DNA of 34,964 bases from an uncultured Bacilli bacterium (GTDB taxonomy: Bacteria > Bacillota_I > Bacilli_A > RF39 > UBA660): positions 1 to 34,964 of the forward strand of contig CANQAT010000007.1 of the NCBI GenBank assembly GCA_947588925.1, given 5' to 3'. Shown piece after piece: positions 6,018 through 29,701 of the stretch; position 1 is the first letter of the stretch, and the number at the start of each line of letters is the position of its first letter. The position numbers were made by a program, and so were the translations under genes. Under the pieces are notes generated by a model. That model was not told where the DNA came from. It ran no database searches and was given only the letters and a program-made list of their open reading frames with translations.

Positions 6018-6039
6018 AATGGCATTTTGCCATTTTTTT
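6016..6039. terminator. Bidirectional terminator between pyrG and asnS
   Basis: AAAATGGC/GCCATTTT hairpin with T-rich tails on both strands. It starts in the last codons of pyrG and reaches the asnS stop. Confidence 0.8.
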
Positions 6040-7414
6040 AATAGTCACAATTTCCGGGTGTTCTATAATATGGAATTACATCTCTTATATTATCTACTCC
6101 TGTTAGATATATGAGTAATCTTTCAAATCCCATACCAAATCCTGAGTGAACACATCCACCATATTTTCTTAGGTTCAAGTACCAATCCATGGAATTTTTA
6201 TCCATTTTTAGTTCATCCATACGTTTAACTAACTTATCATAGTCATCTTCTCTTTGTGATCCACCCATAAGTTCTCCTGCACCCGGTACTTCAAGGTCAA
6301 CTGCTGCAACAGTTTTACCGTCATCATTTTGTTTCATATAAAATGCTTTTATATCTTTAGGCCAGTTTTTAATAAATACAGGTCCGTTAAAATATTCTGT
6401 GATGTATTTTTCGTGTTCTTTAGCGATATCCTCTCCGTATTCAGGTTCAAATTCCCATTTGACATCTGCTTTTTTTAGTATTGTTATTACGTCTTCATGG
6501 TCTATTCTTGTAAACTTACTATTTATAAGCTTAGTTAATTTTTCTATTAAACCTTTTTCAACGAATTTATCAAATAATTCCATCTCTTCTTTGGCGTTAT
6601 CTAGTACATATTTAACTACATATTTTAACATATCTTCCATTATATCCATGTCCATATCAAGATCGCAGAACGCAATTTCAGGTTCAATCATCCAGAATTC
6701 AGAAGCATGGTATTTTGTATTTGAATTCTCTGCTCTAAATGTAGGTCCAAATGTGTAAGTTTTCTTATATGCCATTGCAAATGTTTCTGCTTGAAGTTGA
6801 CCGCTTACTGTAAGAGACGCTCTTTTAGAGAAGAAATCTTTACTGTAATCAACTTTACCACTTTTTGCAACTCTATCTAAATCGAGTGTGGTTACTTGAA
6901 ACATCTCTCCTGCTCCTTCACAATCACTTGATGTTATTATTGGAGCGTGGAAGTATACATATCCCCTATCTTGAAAGTATTTATGTATTGCATATGCGGC
7001 TATACTTCTTACTCTAAATACTGCATTAAATAGATTTGTTCTAGGACGAAGATATGCAATTTCTCTTAAAAATTCACGAGTTGGTCTACCTTTAGATTGT
7101 AGTGGATAATCATCTTTTGAATCCCCTTCTAGTTTTACGTTACTTGCTTTAAGTTCAAAGTCTTGTGTGCCTTCTGATTTAATTAATTTACCAGTTATGC
7201 TAACAGCAGAACCTAGTCTCATTTTACTCAACTCATCAAAGTTAGATAATGTACTATCATAAACAACTTGTAAGTTTTTAAGATACGTACCATCATTAAA
7301 ATCTATAAATCCAAAATCTTTTTGTTTTCTATGACTTCTTATCCAACCTTGTACTGTAATATCTTTATCTAAATATTTTTCATAATCTTTATATATATCT
7401 TTTACATCTAACAT
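6038..7414 (-). CDS. asnS: Asparaginyl-tRNA synthetase
   Basis: Class IIb synthetase charging tRNA-Asn. An N-terminal OB-fold anticodon-binding domain (residues 1-110) is followed by the catalytic core with the AsnRS signature CEGAGEMF, motif 2 FRAENSNT and motif 3 GFGMGFERLL near the C-terminus. The start is ATG 7414 with AAAGGTGAT upstream, four bases after the gatB stop; an in-frame upstream ATG would overlap gatB and lacks spacing to an RBS. Having direct Asn charging means the neighbouring GatCAB is needed mainly for Gln-tRNA, or serves both routes. Last gene of the T-box-headed operon. 458 aa. Confidence 0.97.
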   Translation of the reverse strand: MLDVKDIYKDYEKYLDKDITVQGWIRSHRKQKDFGFIDFNDGTYLKNLQVVYDSTLSNFDELSKMRLGSAVSITGKLIKSEGTQDFELKASNVKLEGDSKDDYPLQSKGRPTREFLREIAYLRPRTNLFNAVFRVRSIAAYAIHKYFQDRGYVYFHAPIITSSDCEGAGEMFQVTTLDLDRVAKSGKVDYSKDFFSKRASLTVSGQLQAETFAMAYKKTYTFGPTFRAENSNTKYHASEFWMIEPEIAFCDLDMDMDIMEDMLKYVVKYVLDNAKEEMELFDKFVEKGLIEKLTKLINSKFTRIDHEDVITILKKADVKWEFEPEYGEDIAKEHEKYITEYFNGPVFIKNWPKDIKAFYMKQNDDGKTVAAVDLEVPGAGELMGGSQREDDYDKLVKRMDELKMDKNSMDWYLNLRKYGGCVHSGFGMGFERLLIYLTGVDNIRDVIPYYRTPGNCDY

Positions 7415-7418
7415 TTTA

Positions 7419-8834
7419 TCACCTTTTTTCCATTTCTTCATTTATTATATCCCTCGTAAGTACTGGATTAGCCTTACCACGGGTTTCTTTCATAACTTGA
7501 CCTACAAAATAATCAAATGTGTTTTTACCTTTTCTGTGATCCTCTATTAAGTCAGGTCTTTCATCAAGTAATTTTGTAACTATATCACGTATAGTTTTAT
7601 CATCTGTAATTTGAGTAAGTCCAAGCTCTTTAACCACTATATTTGGTTCTTTATTTTCTTCTAAACATTTTGAAAATACTTCTTTACTTTGCTTAGATGA
7701 TATTTTATTATTATCGACCATATCAATTAATTCACATAACATTTTAGGAGTTAAAGATAAGTCTTTTATATCAAGTTCATTTTTATTTAAGTATCCAAGT
7801 ACTGAAGTTGTTATCCAATTTGAAATGCTTTTTGGATTACAACCTATAAATACACACTCTTCAAAATAATCTGATACTGCTTTATCTTTTACAAGTATTT
7901 CTGAATCATAACGAGATAGACCATAAACTTCCATATATTTATTAATTCTATCGAATTGTAACATAGGTATTTCACTTTTTATCTCATCTATCCACTCATC
8001 AGTTATTTTAATAGGTGGTATATTTGGTTCAATATAATATTTATAATCTACTGCGTCTACTTTAGAACGAAGTGAATGAGTAGTTAAAGTATCCTCATCA
8101 AAGCGTCTAGTTTCCTGTAATATAACTCCACCATTTTCAAGAACCTCTTTTTGTCTTTTTATTTCAGTTTCAATTGCAAGACGTACACTATTAAAGCTAT
8201 TTATATTTTTCATTTCAGTTCTAGTTCCCAGTGTATCATCTTTTGAAAGTGATATATTTACATCTACTCTCATCTGTCCTTTATCTGTGCGTGCTTCTGA
8301 TACTCCTGTATATAAGAATATCCCTTTTAAAGCTTCAAGGAAAGCTATTGCCTCCGTTGATGAGTGCATACAAGGCTCTGTTACTGTTTCTAGAAGTGGT
8401 ACACCTGCTCTATTATAATCTATTAATGAATAATCTTTAAAGTGGTCTAGTGAGGCAGTATCTTCTTCTAAGTGAATGTTATTTATTCCTATTTTTTTAT
8501 CCTCACCATCCACGTTAATCATGACATACCCATTAACTCCAACTGGTTTTGTCTCTTGTGTTATCTGATAACCTTTAGGTAGATCTGGGTAGTAATAGTT
8601 TTTTCTATCGAACATTACTATATCAGGAGTTTTACAATTTAAAGCAAGTGCCATAAGTAAGGATTTTCTAAATGCTTCTTTGTTTGCAACAGGAAGTATT
8701 CCGGGTAGTCCTAAATCTACAACAGATACGTTTTCGTTAGGATACTCTGAATATGCATTTTTCGCACTTGAAAAGTTTTTTGAATTTGTTTTAACCTCAC
8801 AGTGTACCTCAAGTCCAATTGTTACTTTATACAT
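7419..8834 (-). CDS. gatB: Asp/Glu-tRNA amidotransferase subunit B
   Basis: tRNA-binding and kinase/transamidase subunit of GatCAB, which amidates Glu-tRNA-Gln (and Asp-tRNA-Asn). Signature stretches are GLEVHCEVKT at the N-terminus, KNYYYPDLPKGYQITQ, NRAGVPLLE and RTEMKNINSF. The C-terminal YqeY-like helical tail ends FVGQVMKETRGKANP. Length 471 aa is normal. The RBS is AAAGGAGG; the start overlaps the end of gatA by eight bases. Confidence 0.98.
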   Translation of the reverse strand: MYKVTIGLEVHCEVKTNSKNFSSAKNAYSEYPNENVSVVDLGLPGILPVANKEAFRKSLLMALALNCKTPDIVMFDRKNYYYPDLPKGYQITQETKPVGVNGYVMINVDGEDKKIGINNIHLEEDTASLDHFKDYSLIDYNRAGVPLLETVTEPCMHSSTEAIAFLEALKGIFLYTGVSEARTDKGQMRVDVNISLSKDDTLGTRTEMKNINSFNSVRLAIETEIKRQKEVLENGGVILQETRRFDEDTLTTHSLRSKVDAVDYKYYIEPNIPPIKITDEWIDEIKSEIPMLQFDRINKYMEVYGLSRYDSEILVKDKAVSDYFEECVFIGCNPKSISNWITTSVLGYLNKNELDIKDLSLTPKMLCELIDMVDNNKISSKQSKEVFSKCLEENKEPNIVVKELGLTQITDDKTIRDIVTKLLDERPDLIEDHRKGKNTFDYFVGQVMKETRGKANPVLTRDIINEEMEKR

Positions 8835-10272
8835 CGTATTCCTCCTTTATTAATCCCTTATACCCTAGTTTATCTTCTATTTTGTTTGCTATATTAAGTA
8901 CTTTAGCGTCATCAAAAGCTTTACCAGTTATATTAATTCCAATAGGCATATCATCTACAAATCCATTTGGAATAGTAATGCTAGGAAACCCTCCAAAGTT
9001 ACCTATTACCATATGGTTTTCTAGTATCAAGTATCTATCACTCATTCTATCTATTTCGTTATCAAAGAAAGGCGCAACTCCTCCGCTAGCAGGTAGTATC
9101 ATAGCGTCATAAGTCTTATATAACTCATTCATCTTATCTACTATTATATGTCTTAATCTTAAAGCATTTTTAAATAGTCTTTCTTGATTTTCTCTTTGAA
9201 GTATATAACTACCTAGTATAAATCTTCTTTTTATAAGTTCACTAAAGCCTTTAGTTCTAGCGTCAAACATTATTTCGTTTATACTGCCTCCTTCTCCACG
9301 AGGTCCAAAAGGAATTCCTGTTAGGTTTGAATTATTACTTGTTGCCTCGGCTGAGCTTATTGTTATATAGGTTGGATAGAGTGCTTTTAAAAGATTATCG
9401 TCAAATGATACTTCATCAACTGTAAATCCTAGCTTTTTGCACTCTTCTATAGTCTCTTTAAATTTATCTAATATCTTTAAAGTTTCTTCTCCTGCGTCTT
9501 TATAAAGTGTTTTATCTGTAATTTCTTTTATATAGAATAGTTTCATACCTTTTATATCGTTATCGATTACATCAGTATATTTTATATCTTCATTTGGAAG
9601 TGAGGTCATATCTTTTTCATCTTGACCCTTTAATATATCAGTAACAATTGCAGCGTCTCTAACACATCTTGCAAAACATCCAACATGGTCTAGACTTGAA
9701 GCAAAAGCAAATAATCCATATCTTGATATTCTACCGTATGTAGGCTTAAATCCAACTAACCCACCGAATGCGGCTGGTTTTCTAATGGAATCTCCTGTAT
9801 CTGAACCTATTGAAAATGGAACTATACCAAGGGCAACTGCGGCAGCTGATCCAGCACTAGAGCCACCTATTTCTCTATTTTTATTCCAAGGATTTCTTAC
9901 TATACCTGTGTGTCCAGTCGTACCTGTTCCGCCCATTGCAAGTTCATCTAAAACTGTTTTTCCTACAAGTACTGCTCCTGCGTCTTTTAACTTTTTGTAT
10001 GCAGTTGAATCGTATACTGGAACATAATCTTTTAATATGTTTGAAGAAGCAGTTGTAAGTATTCCTTTAGTTGAAAAGTTATCTTTTAAAGCATATGGAA
10101 TACCGCTTAGAAGTGAATTAGACTCTTTTTCTTCTTTTTTATCCATAATTGTTACAAATGAATTGAACTCATCTTGATAAGTATGTGCTTTTTCTATTGC
10201 GATTTTAAATAGCTCATCGCTTGTAACTTTTTTCTCATCTAAATCTTTTCTTAGATCCATTATAGTTTTCAT
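8827..10272 (-). CDS. gatA: Asp/Glu-tRNA amidotransferase subunit A
   Basis: Glutaminase subunit of GatCAB with the amidase-signature fold (481 aa). The Ser-cisSer-Lys triad can be placed: Lys in PYALKDNF, cis-Ser in GGSSAGSAAA and the nucleophile Ser in SDTGDSIRKPA. The last two motifs differ from the common GGSSGGS and SDTGGSIRQPA forms (G to A, G to D, Q to K), but the three catalytic residues are kept, so activity is expected. Overlaps gatC by four bases (ATGA) and gatB by eight, showing tight coupling. Confidence 0.97.
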   Translation of the reverse strand: MKTIMDLRKDLDEKKVTSDELFKIAIEKAHTYQDEFNSFVTIMDKKEEKESNSLLSGIPYALKDNFSTKGILTTASSNILKDYVPVYDSTAYKKLKDAGAVLVGKTVLDELAMGGTGTTGHTGIVRNPWNKNREIGGSSAGSAAAVALGIVPFSIGSDTGDSIRKPAAFGGLVGFKPTYGRISRYGLFAFASSLDHVGCFARCVRDAAIVTDILKGQDEKDMTSLPNEDIKYTDVIDNDIKGMKLFYIKEITDKTLYKDAGEETLKILDKFKETIEECKKLGFTVDEVSFDDNLLKALYPTYITISSAEATSNNSNLTGIPFGPRGEGGSINEIMFDARTKGFSELIKRRFILGSYILQRENQERLFKNALRLRHIIVDKMNELYKTYDAMILPASGGVAPFFDNEIDRMSDRYLILENHMVIGNFGGFPSITIPNGFVDDMPIGINITGKAFDDAKVLNIANKIEDKLGYKGLIKEEYDV

Positions 10273-10562
10273 TCACCCACCACCTTTGGTACTTTTACTT
10301 GATCTGCTTTTGTATCTTTTGCATTAGCTAAAACTTCATCAGTAGTTAAACTGTCTTTTGCTTCATCTTCTCTAAAGTTTGCATGGTATATAACATATGG
10401 AAATACAAGAGGTTCAACGCTTTTTATATTTTCTATTTTACCTATTAATTCCATATGCTTTTCTACTGTTTCAAACTCTTTTAGAGTTCTTTCGTATCCT
10501 TCATCATCCATATCAAACATTAGCTTTGCTGCATAATCTTTTAAGTTTTCCTTTGTTACCAT
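10269..10562 (-). CDS. gatC: Asp/Glu-tRNA amidotransferase subunit C
   Basis: Small stabilising subunit that wraps around GatA and GatB. 97 aa with the family pattern LKDYAAKLMFDMDDEGYERTLKEF near the start and a LREDE-like FREDEAKDSLTTDEVLANA near the end. The RBS GGAGGATATT lies directly after the U-run of the upstream terminator, leaving no room for a separate promoter. Transcription must come from read-through of the T-box/tRNA unit. Confidence 0.93.
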   Translation of the reverse strand: MVTKENLKDYAAKLMFDMDDEGYERTLKEFETVEKHMELIGKIENIKSVEPLVFPYVIYHANFREDEAKDSLTTDEVLANAKDTKADQVKVPKVVGE

Positions 10563-10576
10563 AATATCCTCCTAAC

Positions 10577-10599
10577 AAAAAAACAAGCCAAAGGCTTGT
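10577..10599 (-). terminator. Hairpin terminator between the tRNA-Asn pair and gatC
   Basis: Minus strand ACAAGCC, TTT loop, GGCTTGT, then seven U. A perfect 7-bp stem only 15 bases before the gatC start. Either a partial terminator setting the tRNA:gatCAB ratio, or the conditional terminator of the unit. Confidence 0.85.
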
Positions 10600-10611
10600 A
10601 CTATTTTTAAA

Positions 10612-10687
10612 TGGCGCCTGATGTAGGACTCGAACCTACGACCTAACGGTTAACAGCCGTGCGCTCTACCGACTGAGCTAATCAGGC
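10612..10687 (-). tRNA. tRNA-Asn(GTT), second of the tandem pair
   Basis: Complete cloverleaf with encoded CCA. Acceptor GCCTGAT/ATCAGGC, discriminator G, anticodon loop CTGTTAA with GTT, T-arm GGTTCGAGTCC. Identical to the first copy outside the acceptor stem. Confidence 0.97.
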
Positions 10688-10695
10688 ATTTAAAA

Positions 10696-10771
10696 TGGCG
10701 CTCAATGTAGGACTCGAACCTACGACCTAACGGTTAACAGCCGTGCGCTCTACCGACTGAGCTAATTGAGC
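10696..10771 (-). tRNA. tRNA-Asn(GTT), first of the tandem pair
   Basis: Complete cloverleaf with encoded CCA. Acceptor GCTCAAT/ATTGAGC, discriminator G, anticodon GTT. It begins about 20 bases after the T-box antiterminator and is separated from the second tRNA by eight bases. Confidence 0.97.
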
Positions 10772-10785
10772 AAATCTAAATAGTT

Positions 10786-11031
10786 TCACCTTGCTTGGGA
10801 CGAAATAACCGCGGTGCCACCCAAATTGTCAAATGACCACTTTACCGATTCTAATAAATCGTGCAACGGCTAACGGGTTACATCCGGAAAACTCTACTTT
10901 GTTCAAGTTAACAGTTCATGAGTGTTATTCATAATATGCTTGATTGTTAGCTTCCACCATACCTAACTCGCTTTAATTAGTTTATATTATTACTTCTCTC
11001 AATCAAAACTTTTATTCCCTAAAAGGCTTAT
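10786..11031 (-). ncRNA. T-box riboswitch leader, Asn-specific
   Basis: Minus-strand leader. The T-box core GGGTGGCACCGCGG is at 10822-10809, and CGTCCCAA (10802-10795) closes the antiterminator by pairing CCCAA with TTGGG. The bulge UGGC is complementary to the GCCA end of tRNA-Asn (discriminator G). In Stem I the S-turn halves AGTA and GAA flank an ATAATAT/ATATTAT helix, and the apical GTTAG/CTAAC stem encloses a GGTG loop. The codon right after the GAA side reads AAC (10926-10924), matching anticodon GTT. No downstream GGGACG strand exists to make the usual competing terminator before the tRNAs. Known biology: T-boxes sense uncharged tRNA; here it heads tRNA-Asn genes plus gatCAB-asnS. Confidence 0.92.
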
Positions 11032-11037
11032 GTACTA

Positions 11038-11066
11038 ATTATAGATTAGAATTACCTTTTTGTCAA
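11038..11066 (-). promoter_or_regulatory. Promoter of the T-box/tRNA-Asn/gatCAB-asnS unit
   Basis: Minus strand consensus TTGACA (11066-11061), 17-base spacer, consensus TATAAT (11043-11038). A near-perfect housekeeping promoter. Confidence 0.9.
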
Positions 11067-17975: not shown

Positions 17976-18584
17976 ATGGAGAGTTTAAATTTAATAACTG
18001 AACAATTAAGAATTAACTTAATAAACTTTTTTAGAGAGAAAAAGGCAAAATTTGATAGTATGTATTTTGATGATGAAGATGGTGAGGAATTAGAGGATGA
18101 AAATACTTGCTGTGATGAAACAGATACAGATGATTTAGATGACGAAGAATATGATATGTTGGCCGATGAGGAAATAGATTATAATAGTAGTAGGTTCAAT
18201 GAAGAAGTAGAAATGAAACTAGTTGAAGAAATTAGAAAAAGTGACTATAAAAAGATTATTTATCTTATACTTTTAGAAGATATATACGAAGCTTGTAAAT
18301 CAAGACAAATATTAAACGAAAATCTAGCTGACTACGAAAAAAATTATATAAATCTATTAGAAGGAGCCAGTTTAAAAGATATATTTAATTGTTTTGAAAA
18401 AGATGATGAATTCTTACTAGACACATTTTCTTTATTTTATGGCTATAATATATCTAGTTCTATTGAGGATAGATATAAAAATAGAAAGCTTATAGAACTA
18501 GCTGGGAATTATTCTTATTTGGAAAAGTTTTCTGTACATACAATGGATGACGCACAATACGAATACTATAAAAGAAGGAATTAA
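17976..18584 (+). CDS. Hypothetical acidic protein
   Basis: 202 aa, family not recognised. Residues about 25-65 form a dense Asp/Glu patch (DDEDGEELEDE, then DETDTDDLDDEEYD) with a CC pair inside. The rest is predicted helical and charged, without membrane segment or signal peptide. Strong RBS (TTAGGGGGAT) and its own promoter argue for a real gene. Its TAA stop overlaps the gltX TAA on the other strand (18581-18584), both in the loop of the shared terminator. Confidence 0.8.
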   Translation: MESLNLITEQLRINLINFFREKKAKFDSMYFDDEDGEELEDENTCCDETDTDDLDDEEYDMLADEEIDYNSSRFNEEVEMKLVEEIRKSDYKKIIYLILLEDIYEACKSRQILNENLADYEKNYINLLEGASLKDIFNCFEKDDEFLLDTFSLFYGYNISSSIEDRYKNRKLIELAGNYSYLEKFSVHTMDDAQYEYYKRRN

Positions 18585-18597
18585 CCTTCTTTTATTT
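18571..18597. terminator. Bidirectional terminator between the orphan gene and gltX
   Basis: AAAGAAGG/CCTTCTTT with loop AATTAA and T-rich tail. Both convergent stop codons lie in the loop. Confidence 0.8.
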
Positions 18598-20236
18598 TTG
18601 TAAATCTATCTTTTATTCTATCTTTACCTAATAAACTCATTATTTCATACAAATCTGGTGTCATTGACTTACTTGTTAGAGCTACTCTAAGAACAGTAGA
18701 TATGTCTGCGACACTTCCTTTAAACGCGCTAGGATCTTTCTTATATTCTTTCATATTTGAAGCATATCCAAGGTTATCACACATGAGTTTAATATTGTTA
18801 AACCATATATCTTTATCTGATAAATCTATATACTTATCTATATATGTATTAAGTATTTTATTTATCTCATCTTTATCAGTAATATTTTTCCATTCATAAG
18901 TTTTTTCTTTATTATAGAATATATCATCGTACATATACCATATTAAATTTTCTATATCAGAATATTTAGCAATATCTTTTCTTGGCTTTTCTTGTTCTCT
19001 TTCTATATTTATAATGCTTTTATAATAATCTGGATCTTTTTCTATTAAATTTTTTAGAGTTTCACTATAAGTACTAGCCCAATTTAAAGATTCTTGATAT
19101 AGTTCTTCTTTTGTCATTTTAGATATAATATTTTTAGATATATCATCAAGTTTCATTAAATCATAAAGCGCACCACTAGTGGACATCTTATCCGCACTAA
19201 ACTTAAAATCTGTAAATTTTTTATCTGGATTAGAAGTGTGCCACTCCTCATAATTAGAATTTATTATAGTCATAAGAGATTCTATAACTGCAAGTTTAGG
19301 ATATCCTAATTCTTCATAATAACTCATTCTAGCTTCTGGATCTTTTCTTTTACTTATCTTTCTTAGTGTTTCACCATCTTTTTTCATGATAAGTGGTGTA
19401 TGTATGTATTTTGGAGCTTCAAATCCAAATGCTTCAAACATTTGAATATGTTTAGGCGCACTAGGCAACCACTCTTCTCCTCTAACTACATATGTAGTAT
19501 GCATTAAATGGTCATCTACAACGTGTGCGAAATGATATGTAGGAAGCATATTTTCACTTTTCATAATTACTTCATCTATATCATTTTCGTTTAAGTAAAG
19601 TTTCCCTTGCCTTAAATCATCAAATTCAAATTTATTATCAAAATTTCCATTACTTCTAAATCTTATTACGTATTTTTCACCATTTTTTATTTTCTCAATA
19701 GCTTCTTCGATAGATAACCTTGAACATCTAGCAAATCTTCCATGATAGCCCGGTCTAATTTTCATAGTTTCTTGGTTTTCTCTCATTAAATCTAGCTCTT
19801 CTTTGTCACAAAAGCAAGGATATGCCCTACCTATTTCTATTAAGTGTTTTATAAATGCATGATATATTTCTTTTCTCTCACTTTGTATATATGGTCCATA
19901 ATTACCAACTGTTTTTCCATTAAATTCATATTCATCAGGGATTAGATCATAGTGAGTTAAAGTATGCATAATAATTTCATCTGCGCCCTCTAATTCCCTA
20001 GCCTTGTCAGTATCCTCAAATCTTAAATAAAATACTCCATTAGATTCTTTAGCAATTGTATAATCTATAAGTGCTTGAAAAAGTCCACCTAAATGTATAA
20101 AGCCTGTTGGTGATGGCGCAAATCTAGTAACTATCGCCCCGCTAGGCAAATTCCTACTTGGATATTCTTTTTCGTAATCCTCTATAGTTTTAGTAATATT
20201 TGGGAATATTAAATCTGCTAAATCTTTATTTGTCAT
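18581..20236 (-). CDS. gltX: Glutamyl-tRNA synthetase
   Basis: Class Ic synthetase charging tRNA-Glu. HIGH-type motif in RFAPSPTGFIHLGG, the Glu-binding FEDTD block, and KMSKS-type LRKISKRKDP. The C-terminal helical anticodon domain ends KSMTPDLYEIMSLLGK. At 551 aa it matches the longer clostridial GltX form (E. coli has 471). Together with GatCAB, a non-discriminating enzyme making Glu-tRNA-Gln is likely; no glnS is seen here. Start ATG 20236; a TTG one codon earlier is also open. Confidence 0.96.
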   Translation of the reverse strand: MTNKDLADLIFPNITKTIEDYEKEYPSRNLPSGAIVTRFAPSPTGFIHLGGLFQALIDYTIAKESNGVFYLRFEDTDKARELEGADEIIMHTLTHYDLIPDEYEFNGKTVGNYGPYIQSERKEIYHAFIKHLIEIGRAYPCFCDKEELDLMRENQETMKIRPGYHGRFARCSRLSIEEAIEKIKNGEKYVIRFRSNGNFDNKFEFDDLRQGKLYLNENDIDEVIMKSENMLPTYHFAHVVDDHLMHTTYVVRGEEWLPSAPKHIQMFEAFGFEAPKYIHTPLIMKKDGETLRKISKRKDPEARMSYYEELGYPKLAVIESLMTIINSNYEEWHTSNPDKKFTDFKFSADKMSTSGALYDLMKLDDISKNIISKMTKEELYQESLNWASTYSETLKNLIEKDPDYYKSIINIEREQEKPRKDIAKYSDIENLIWYMYDDIFYNKEKTYEWKNITDKDEINKILNTYIDKYIDLSDKDIWFNNIKLMCDNLGYASNMKEYKKDPSAFKGSVADISTVLRVALTSKSMTPDLYEIMSLLGKDRIKDRFTKIKEG

Positions 20237-20259
20237 CAAATCACTCTCATTTCTAAATG

Positions 20260-29516: not shown

Positions 29517-29696
29517 TTAAAAATGCCAGAAGAGCGTAGTCCTGAATCGAATAAAACCTAGTCTCCCAGGTGGGCACCACATCATACCCTTTAGGATCCC
29601 TAAATTAATAGGTCTTCAACACCGAGTATGAATTAGATTCCCTTATATTTCGATTAGTAGGTTTTTCATATAGGACATTTTATCGCTTCTTCCAGC
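29517..29696 (-). ncRNA. ssrS: 6S-like structured RNA
   Basis: About 180 nt with its own strong promoter and a U-run end. The 5' and 3' ends pair in a rod: GGAAGAAGCG (29693-29684) with CGCTCTTC (29536-29529), GTCCT (29676-29672) with AGGAC (29543-29539), AAAACCTA (29665-29658) with TAGGTTTT (29560-29553). These helices are separated by internal loops, with local hairpins at the far end (ATACTC/GGGTAT, TTTAGG/CCTAAA). Size and long rod with bubbles fit bacterial 6S RNA, the sigma-A holoenzyme decoy. I recognise the architecture, not a specific sequence signature. A regulatory leader of the downstream exonuclease is the alternative. Confidence 0.55.
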
Positions 29697-29701
29697 ATAA
29701 T

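Follow-up and report, generated by a model that had tools for sequence, protein, structure and literature searches.

The window analyzed here, a stretch of 34,964 nucleotides, carries an Asn operon on its minus strand. The operon begins with a promoter that agrees with the consensus at 12 of 12 bases (TTGACA-17-TATAAT, 11066..11038). This is the sole strong promoter of the unit, and a promoter scan identified no comparable site between the T-box and the tRNAs or between the terminator and gatC. Downstream lies a T-box leader (11015..10793) that matches RF00230 over the whole length of the model, at 126.8 bits compared to a cut-off of 93 (E 5e-28). The covariance-model alignment places the specifier AAC at 10926..10924 and the UGGC bulge at 10819..10816; AAC fits the anticodon GUU, and UGGC fits the GCCA end of tRNA-Asn. 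The antiterminator element, UGGGUGGCACCGCGG..UCGUCCC, occupies 10797..10823 in the alignment and has an energy of -5.9 kcal/mol in a forced fold. Two tRNA-Asn(GTT) genes follow, at 10771..10696 (72.4 bits) and 10687..10612 (71.8 bits), each with discriminator G and then CCA. The T-box-to-tRNA pattern had 0 matches in 100 shuffles of the window.

Beyond the second tRNA gene is a perfect intrinsic terminator, T2, composed of ACAAGCC UUU GGCUUGU and seven U (hairpin 10599..10583, with the U-tract to 10577). The start codon of gatC (10562..10269; TIGR00135 at its cut-off) is 15 nt past this U-tract, which leaves no room for another promoter, so gatC is reached by read-through. Then come gatA (10272..8827; best match TIGR00132 at 445 bits, slightly under the cut-off of 481), gatB (8834..7419) and asnS, encoding asparaginyl-tRNA synthetase (7441..6038). 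These four genes mutually overlap, and the unit ends at 6038. A first-pass annotation, made from the window alone, had listed the consensus promoter, the Asn T-box, two tRNA-Asn(GTT) genes with discriminator G and gatC-A-B-asnS in this order. All of these parts are present, the covariance-model scan supports the T-box, and no separate promoters for the tRNAs or gatC were found. The list had omitted T2, however, and had overlooked that a U-tract terminator is missing ahead of the tRNAs.

A profile search detected no GlnRS in the window's genome. The best match, at 45 bits compared to a cut-off of 426, is inside an ORF at 18581..20239 that is read as gltX. GatCAB thus presumably serves Gln-tRNA and AsnRS serves Asn, a division inferred from the pathways. 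Elsewhere in the window there is a 6S RNA at 29519-29701 on the minus strand (RF00013, 62 bits), and another UGGC-bulge T-box of the same genome, L007, heads an apparent aspartyl-tRNA synthetase gene.

Relatives were searched with a pattern reaching from the T-box core to the tRNA T-arm, and the resulting counts are lower bounds. Within the order, the pattern matched in at least 20 of 288 genomes, which all belong to one family, and a second draw of that family gave matches in at least 23 of 386 genomes (13 of 150 genera). There was no match in class-mates outside the family (sample of 395, including about fifty family members). A few matches represented a different unit, with tRNA-Phe. The first-pass annotation had described the T-box as a cis element heading the genes for the tRNA that it senses, and this order is indeed conserved: in the window's genus, g1, it occurs in 13 of 16 genomes, and it is also present in 6 of 7 genomes of genus g74 and 2 of 2 of genus g269. 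In two of the three g1 genomes without a match (G244 and G292), the contig breaks off within the tRNA, and the same terminator follows; in the third (G294, 62% complete), the end of the tRNA lies at a contig edge together with that terminator. T-box scores of the g1 relatives are between 124.6 and 152.2 bits (RF00230). In the window's genome, and in those g1, g74 and g269 genomes with tRNA and T-box on one contig, all tRNA-Asn found lie behind the T-box. The same holds for most relatives of canonical layout (G245, G108, G214, G243, G276 and others). An additional tRNA-Asn copy is present in G662, and in G093, G171 and G676 fragments near contig ends may represent further copies.

Between the T-box and the first tRNA of the window there is no U-tract terminator. 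Instead, a competing hairpin, H1 (UUUCGUC/GGUGAAA, 10784..10805), takes the 3' strand of the antiterminator and has no U-tract behind it; according to folding, H1 and the antiterminator are mutually exclusive. The U-tract terminator, T2, is about 185 nt past H1, beyond the tRNAs. The same position, after the last tRNA and just ahead of gatC, is taken by T2 in g1, g74 and g269. The leader is therefore a member of the T-box family that belongs neither to class I, as H1 overlaps the antiterminator but lacks the U-tract of a terminator, nor to class II, as the antiterminator is followed by a tRNA gene and not by a ribosome-binding site that a sequestrator could act upon.

It could be argued that this is nevertheless an ordinary class I T-box, in which a weak H1 terminates transcription before the tRNAs, tRNAs and enzymes are gated together and T2 is incidental. 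H1 has been retained and competes with the antiterminator, and other genera have exactly that layout with a good U-tract. Moreover, of seven further T-boxes that were inspected in the window's genome, six end in 6-7 T, and the seventh (L005) has a weak U-tract. Against this, T runs between T-box and tRNAs do not exceed 4 nt in any of the g1, g74 and g269 loci, compared to 5-7 nt in the canonical T-box-tRNA loci of other genera, and H1 reaches only -2.9 kcal/mol in the window. Such a switch would also throttle the sole tRNA-Asn genes, and it would leave unexplained both the conserved T2 and the long-range covariation described next. We consider it unlikely.

The 3' strand of H1, termed arm R, is complementary to an arm L located across one or two tRNAs in g1, g74 and g269. 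In the window, R (10778..10792) consists of AAGGU (10792..10788), which pairs with GCCUU (10595..10591), and ACUAUUU (10784..10778), which pairs with AAAUAGU (10606..10600). Arm L (10591..10606) covers the 5' arm and loop of T2 together with the flank just upstream. At locus L026, AGACUUG...CUAUUUAA is opposite UUAAAUAG..CAAGUCU. Mean R:L energy in g1 was -12.7 kcal/mol for true partners and -10.7 kcal/mol for swapped partners, with 0 of 5000 permutations as good, and across 19 loci 114 of 133 cells of the inner helix were paired compared to a permutation mean of 98.3 (sd 4.3, p ~2e-4), with the reservation that kinship of the genomes inflates such permutation tests. The inner helix was aligned solely by anchoring on the terminator G(U/C)C, and L was dealt out randomly in the permutations. 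Eight of 12 g1 loci were in the best 0.5% of the 20-nt windows of their own locus. The anchor triple was paired in 57 of 57 cases. Among the 19 loci, one pair of the inner helix is A-U (12), G-C (5) or G-U (2), and another is G-U (7), A-U (5), C-G (4) or U-G (1) and unpaired in 2; in most loci, the latter position is in the terminator loop and thus unconstrained by the terminator stem.

Outside g1, the g269 locus L311 combines UUAGGGC:GUCCUAA with a second 7-bp block, and this pairing employs letters other than those of g1 (7+7 bp, -13.3 kcal/mol, 0 of 2870 windows as good). In genome G655, which was obtained only once the hypothesis had been written down, there is a 9-bp pairing, UAAUAGGAU:GUCCUAUUA, at -9.4 kcal/mol, which is in the best 0.4% of windows and is equaled by 2.4% of shuffles; its R copies the T2 3' arm UUUAAUAGG. 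The pairing is shorter in g74 (-6.5 to -11.5 kcal/mol), where true partners have no advantage over swapped ones. It is weak at L028, and at L025 it is no better than 7% of shuffles. Four canonical T-box-tRNA controls had no excess R:L complementarity. Judged from these comparisons, R:L complementarity across the tRNAs has been kept through sequence change, clearly in g1 and g269 and weakly in g74.

T2 could also be leaky and free of regulation, fixing how much tRNA is made relative to mRNA; the T-box would then have decayed or act otherwise, and R:L would be the relic of a duplication. Partial terminators are common inside operons, and some canonical relatives likewise have a terminator between the tRNAs and gatC (L017). 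However, the T-box still has its full length and scores highly (124-152 bits in g1), R tracks changes in a terminator loop that the terminator stem leaves free to vary, and g269 has independent arms; we think this explanation similarly unlikely. It is highly improbable that R:L acts on RNA processing or stability, looping around the tRNAs to steer RNase P/Z cleavage or to protect the gatC mRNA, since, even though R directly precedes the first tRNA and L directly follows the last, L overlaps the 5' arm and loop of a terminator and no processing site, and R overlaps the strand that competes with the antiterminator, which is the anatomy of an attenuator.

Folding indicates how the arms might be coupled to the T-box. 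When the antiterminator was forced and the polymerase was placed at the end of L, pairing of the anchor with R had a probability of 0.85-1.00 in 19 of 19 loci. Conversely, when R is folded onto the 3' strand of the antiterminator, it cannot pair with L. Without a forced antiterminator, some loci already favor R:L. Whereas folding up to the end of L separates the two states, equilibrium folding of complete transcripts does not do so cleanly: T2 wins in many genomes, and in the window its P is 0.92 even with the antiterminator forced. The model consequently needs a co-transcriptional order of events.

Comparison of the window's operon, which is from an uncultivated gut-type Bacilli lineage, with its relatives suggests that the T-box controls a stop signal past the tRNAs. 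We read the parts and their order, their conservation, the lost proximal U-tract, the tracking of sequence change by R:L and the mutual exclusion of H1 and antiterminator as the marks of an Asn T-box whose terminator has moved beyond the tRNA-Asn genes and is contacted through long-range base pairing, and we hold this to be probable. The binding of tRNA, the timing of events and a causal role of R:L in read-through are inferred. In this displaced-terminator model, the strong promoter would drive constitutive synthesis of the leader and the tRNAs. When tRNA-Asn is charged, no antiterminator would form and R would fold onto the antiterminator 3' strand as H1; T2 would then fold freely and end transcription, and the tRNAs alone would be made. 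When uncharged tRNA-Asn accumulates, it would hold the antiterminator, and R would stay free. L, which emerges past the tRNAs and before the 3' arm of T2, would then pair with R and occupy the 5' side of T2, and with T2 blocked the polymerase would read through into gatC-gatA-gatB-asnS. That the released arm disarms the distant terminator in this way, with the sole tRNA-Asn genes constitutive and the enzymes induced by uncharged tRNA, is a reading we favor with somewhat greater reserve. What is switched is most likely T2, behind the tRNAs, which would leave the tRNAs outside control and gate gatCAB-asnS alone. Cutting of R from L by RNase P or Z could be a difficulty for the model.

Two proposals of the first-pass annotation find no support in the window's genome. 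One is that the switch gates the tRNAs, ahead of which there is no U-tract terminator; the other is local positive feedback by tRNA from the same transcript. A T-box requires a free 3' CCA, which a nascent tRNA does not have, and T2 is only about 25 nt past the last tRNA; feedback by nascent tRNA was thus rejected. Feedback wiring does exist in genera g61, g93, g102, g276, g288 and g290, acting via the tRNA pool of the cell: here a normal T-box terminator with 5-7 T is ahead of the tRNA-Asn genes, and the tRNAs themselves are therefore gated.

Further architectures occur within the family. Two genomes of g102 (loci L018 and L307), and also L314, have a T-box, four to five tRNA-Asn genes, a second T-box and gatC, and G765 (g102) has a promoter, two tRNA-Asn genes, a T-box and gatC. 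These layouts are possible intermediate stages. In g61 (L010, L011, L012, L014, L015), the T-box seems to be embedded in a tRNA operon, since tRNA-Ile and tRNA-Glu stop about 25 nt upstream of it. At L010, L014, L015 and L037, terminator-like hairpins between the last tRNA-Asn and gatC resemble a tRNA T-arm (GUAGGUCGUAGG...CCUAC) and are perhaps a tRNA remnant turned terminator. A GatC tree groups g1 with g93 and g276, and g74 and g269 with g61 and g102. That GatC proteins of two clearly distinct types are encoded downstream of the same T-box-tRNA unit suggests that the gene was replaced or that the origin was repeated. Other genera of the family contain a second T-box-tRNA unit, in which a T-box with a good terminator is followed by tRNA-Phe(GAA) (L009, L312) or, in its place, by a decayed tRNA-like copy (L305, L308); short genes follow at all four loci, and the unit may be mobile.

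If true, the displaced-terminator model resolves the deadlock that arises when an essential tRNA is controlled by a switch for which that very tRNA is required, a wiring that related genera keep. The first genes behind the leader encode its own ligand, and the terminator on which the control element would act is separated from it by genes for stable RNAs. What look like intermediate stages in relatives (tRNAs ahead of the T-box, T-boxes flanking the tRNAs, a T-box with its terminator ahead of the tRNAs, and a displaced terminator) would make it possible to trace how the expression platform of a riboswitch evolved. Annotators could not assume that the terminator adjoining a T-box is the switched one. 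A survey of 2008 reported no T-box upstream of amidotransferase genes in its set (PMC2494555). In the open-access literature, which we covered incompletely, neither a T-box ahead of tRNA genes nor a displaced terminator of a T-box came to light, and we do not claim priority.

In the textbook view, T-boxes are leaders, each of which switches the gene that immediately follows it. The leader of the window resembles them in its Stem I with specifier, its antiterminator with a UGGN bulge, the hairpin competing for the antiterminator 3' strand and the amino-acid enzyme operon downstream. It differs in that the competing hairpin lacks a U-tract, the terminator is past the tRNA genes (one or two in relatives) and seems to be linked by a long-range arm, and the first products are the ligand tRNAs. 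Also close are the loci of g61, g93, g102, g276, g288 and g290, of the same family as the window and also with the T-box directly upstream of tRNA-Asn, but with the canonical terminator before the tRNAs and, in the four tested, without R:L excess. In thrU-tufB of Escherichia coli, tRNA genes are co-transcribed with a protein gene, and there, too, tRNAs are processed from a transcript that also carries mRNA; unlike that of the window, the thrU-tufB leader is not known to contain a tRNA-sensing riboswitch. The transamidation operon of Clostridium acetobutylicum is reported to be likewise preceded by an Asn-sensing T-box, a two-codon type with overlapping Asn and Glu codons in the specifier loop (Saad 2013, per PMC4052509). 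In the window, by contrast, the specifier context is GAAUAACA, in which AAC alone matches.
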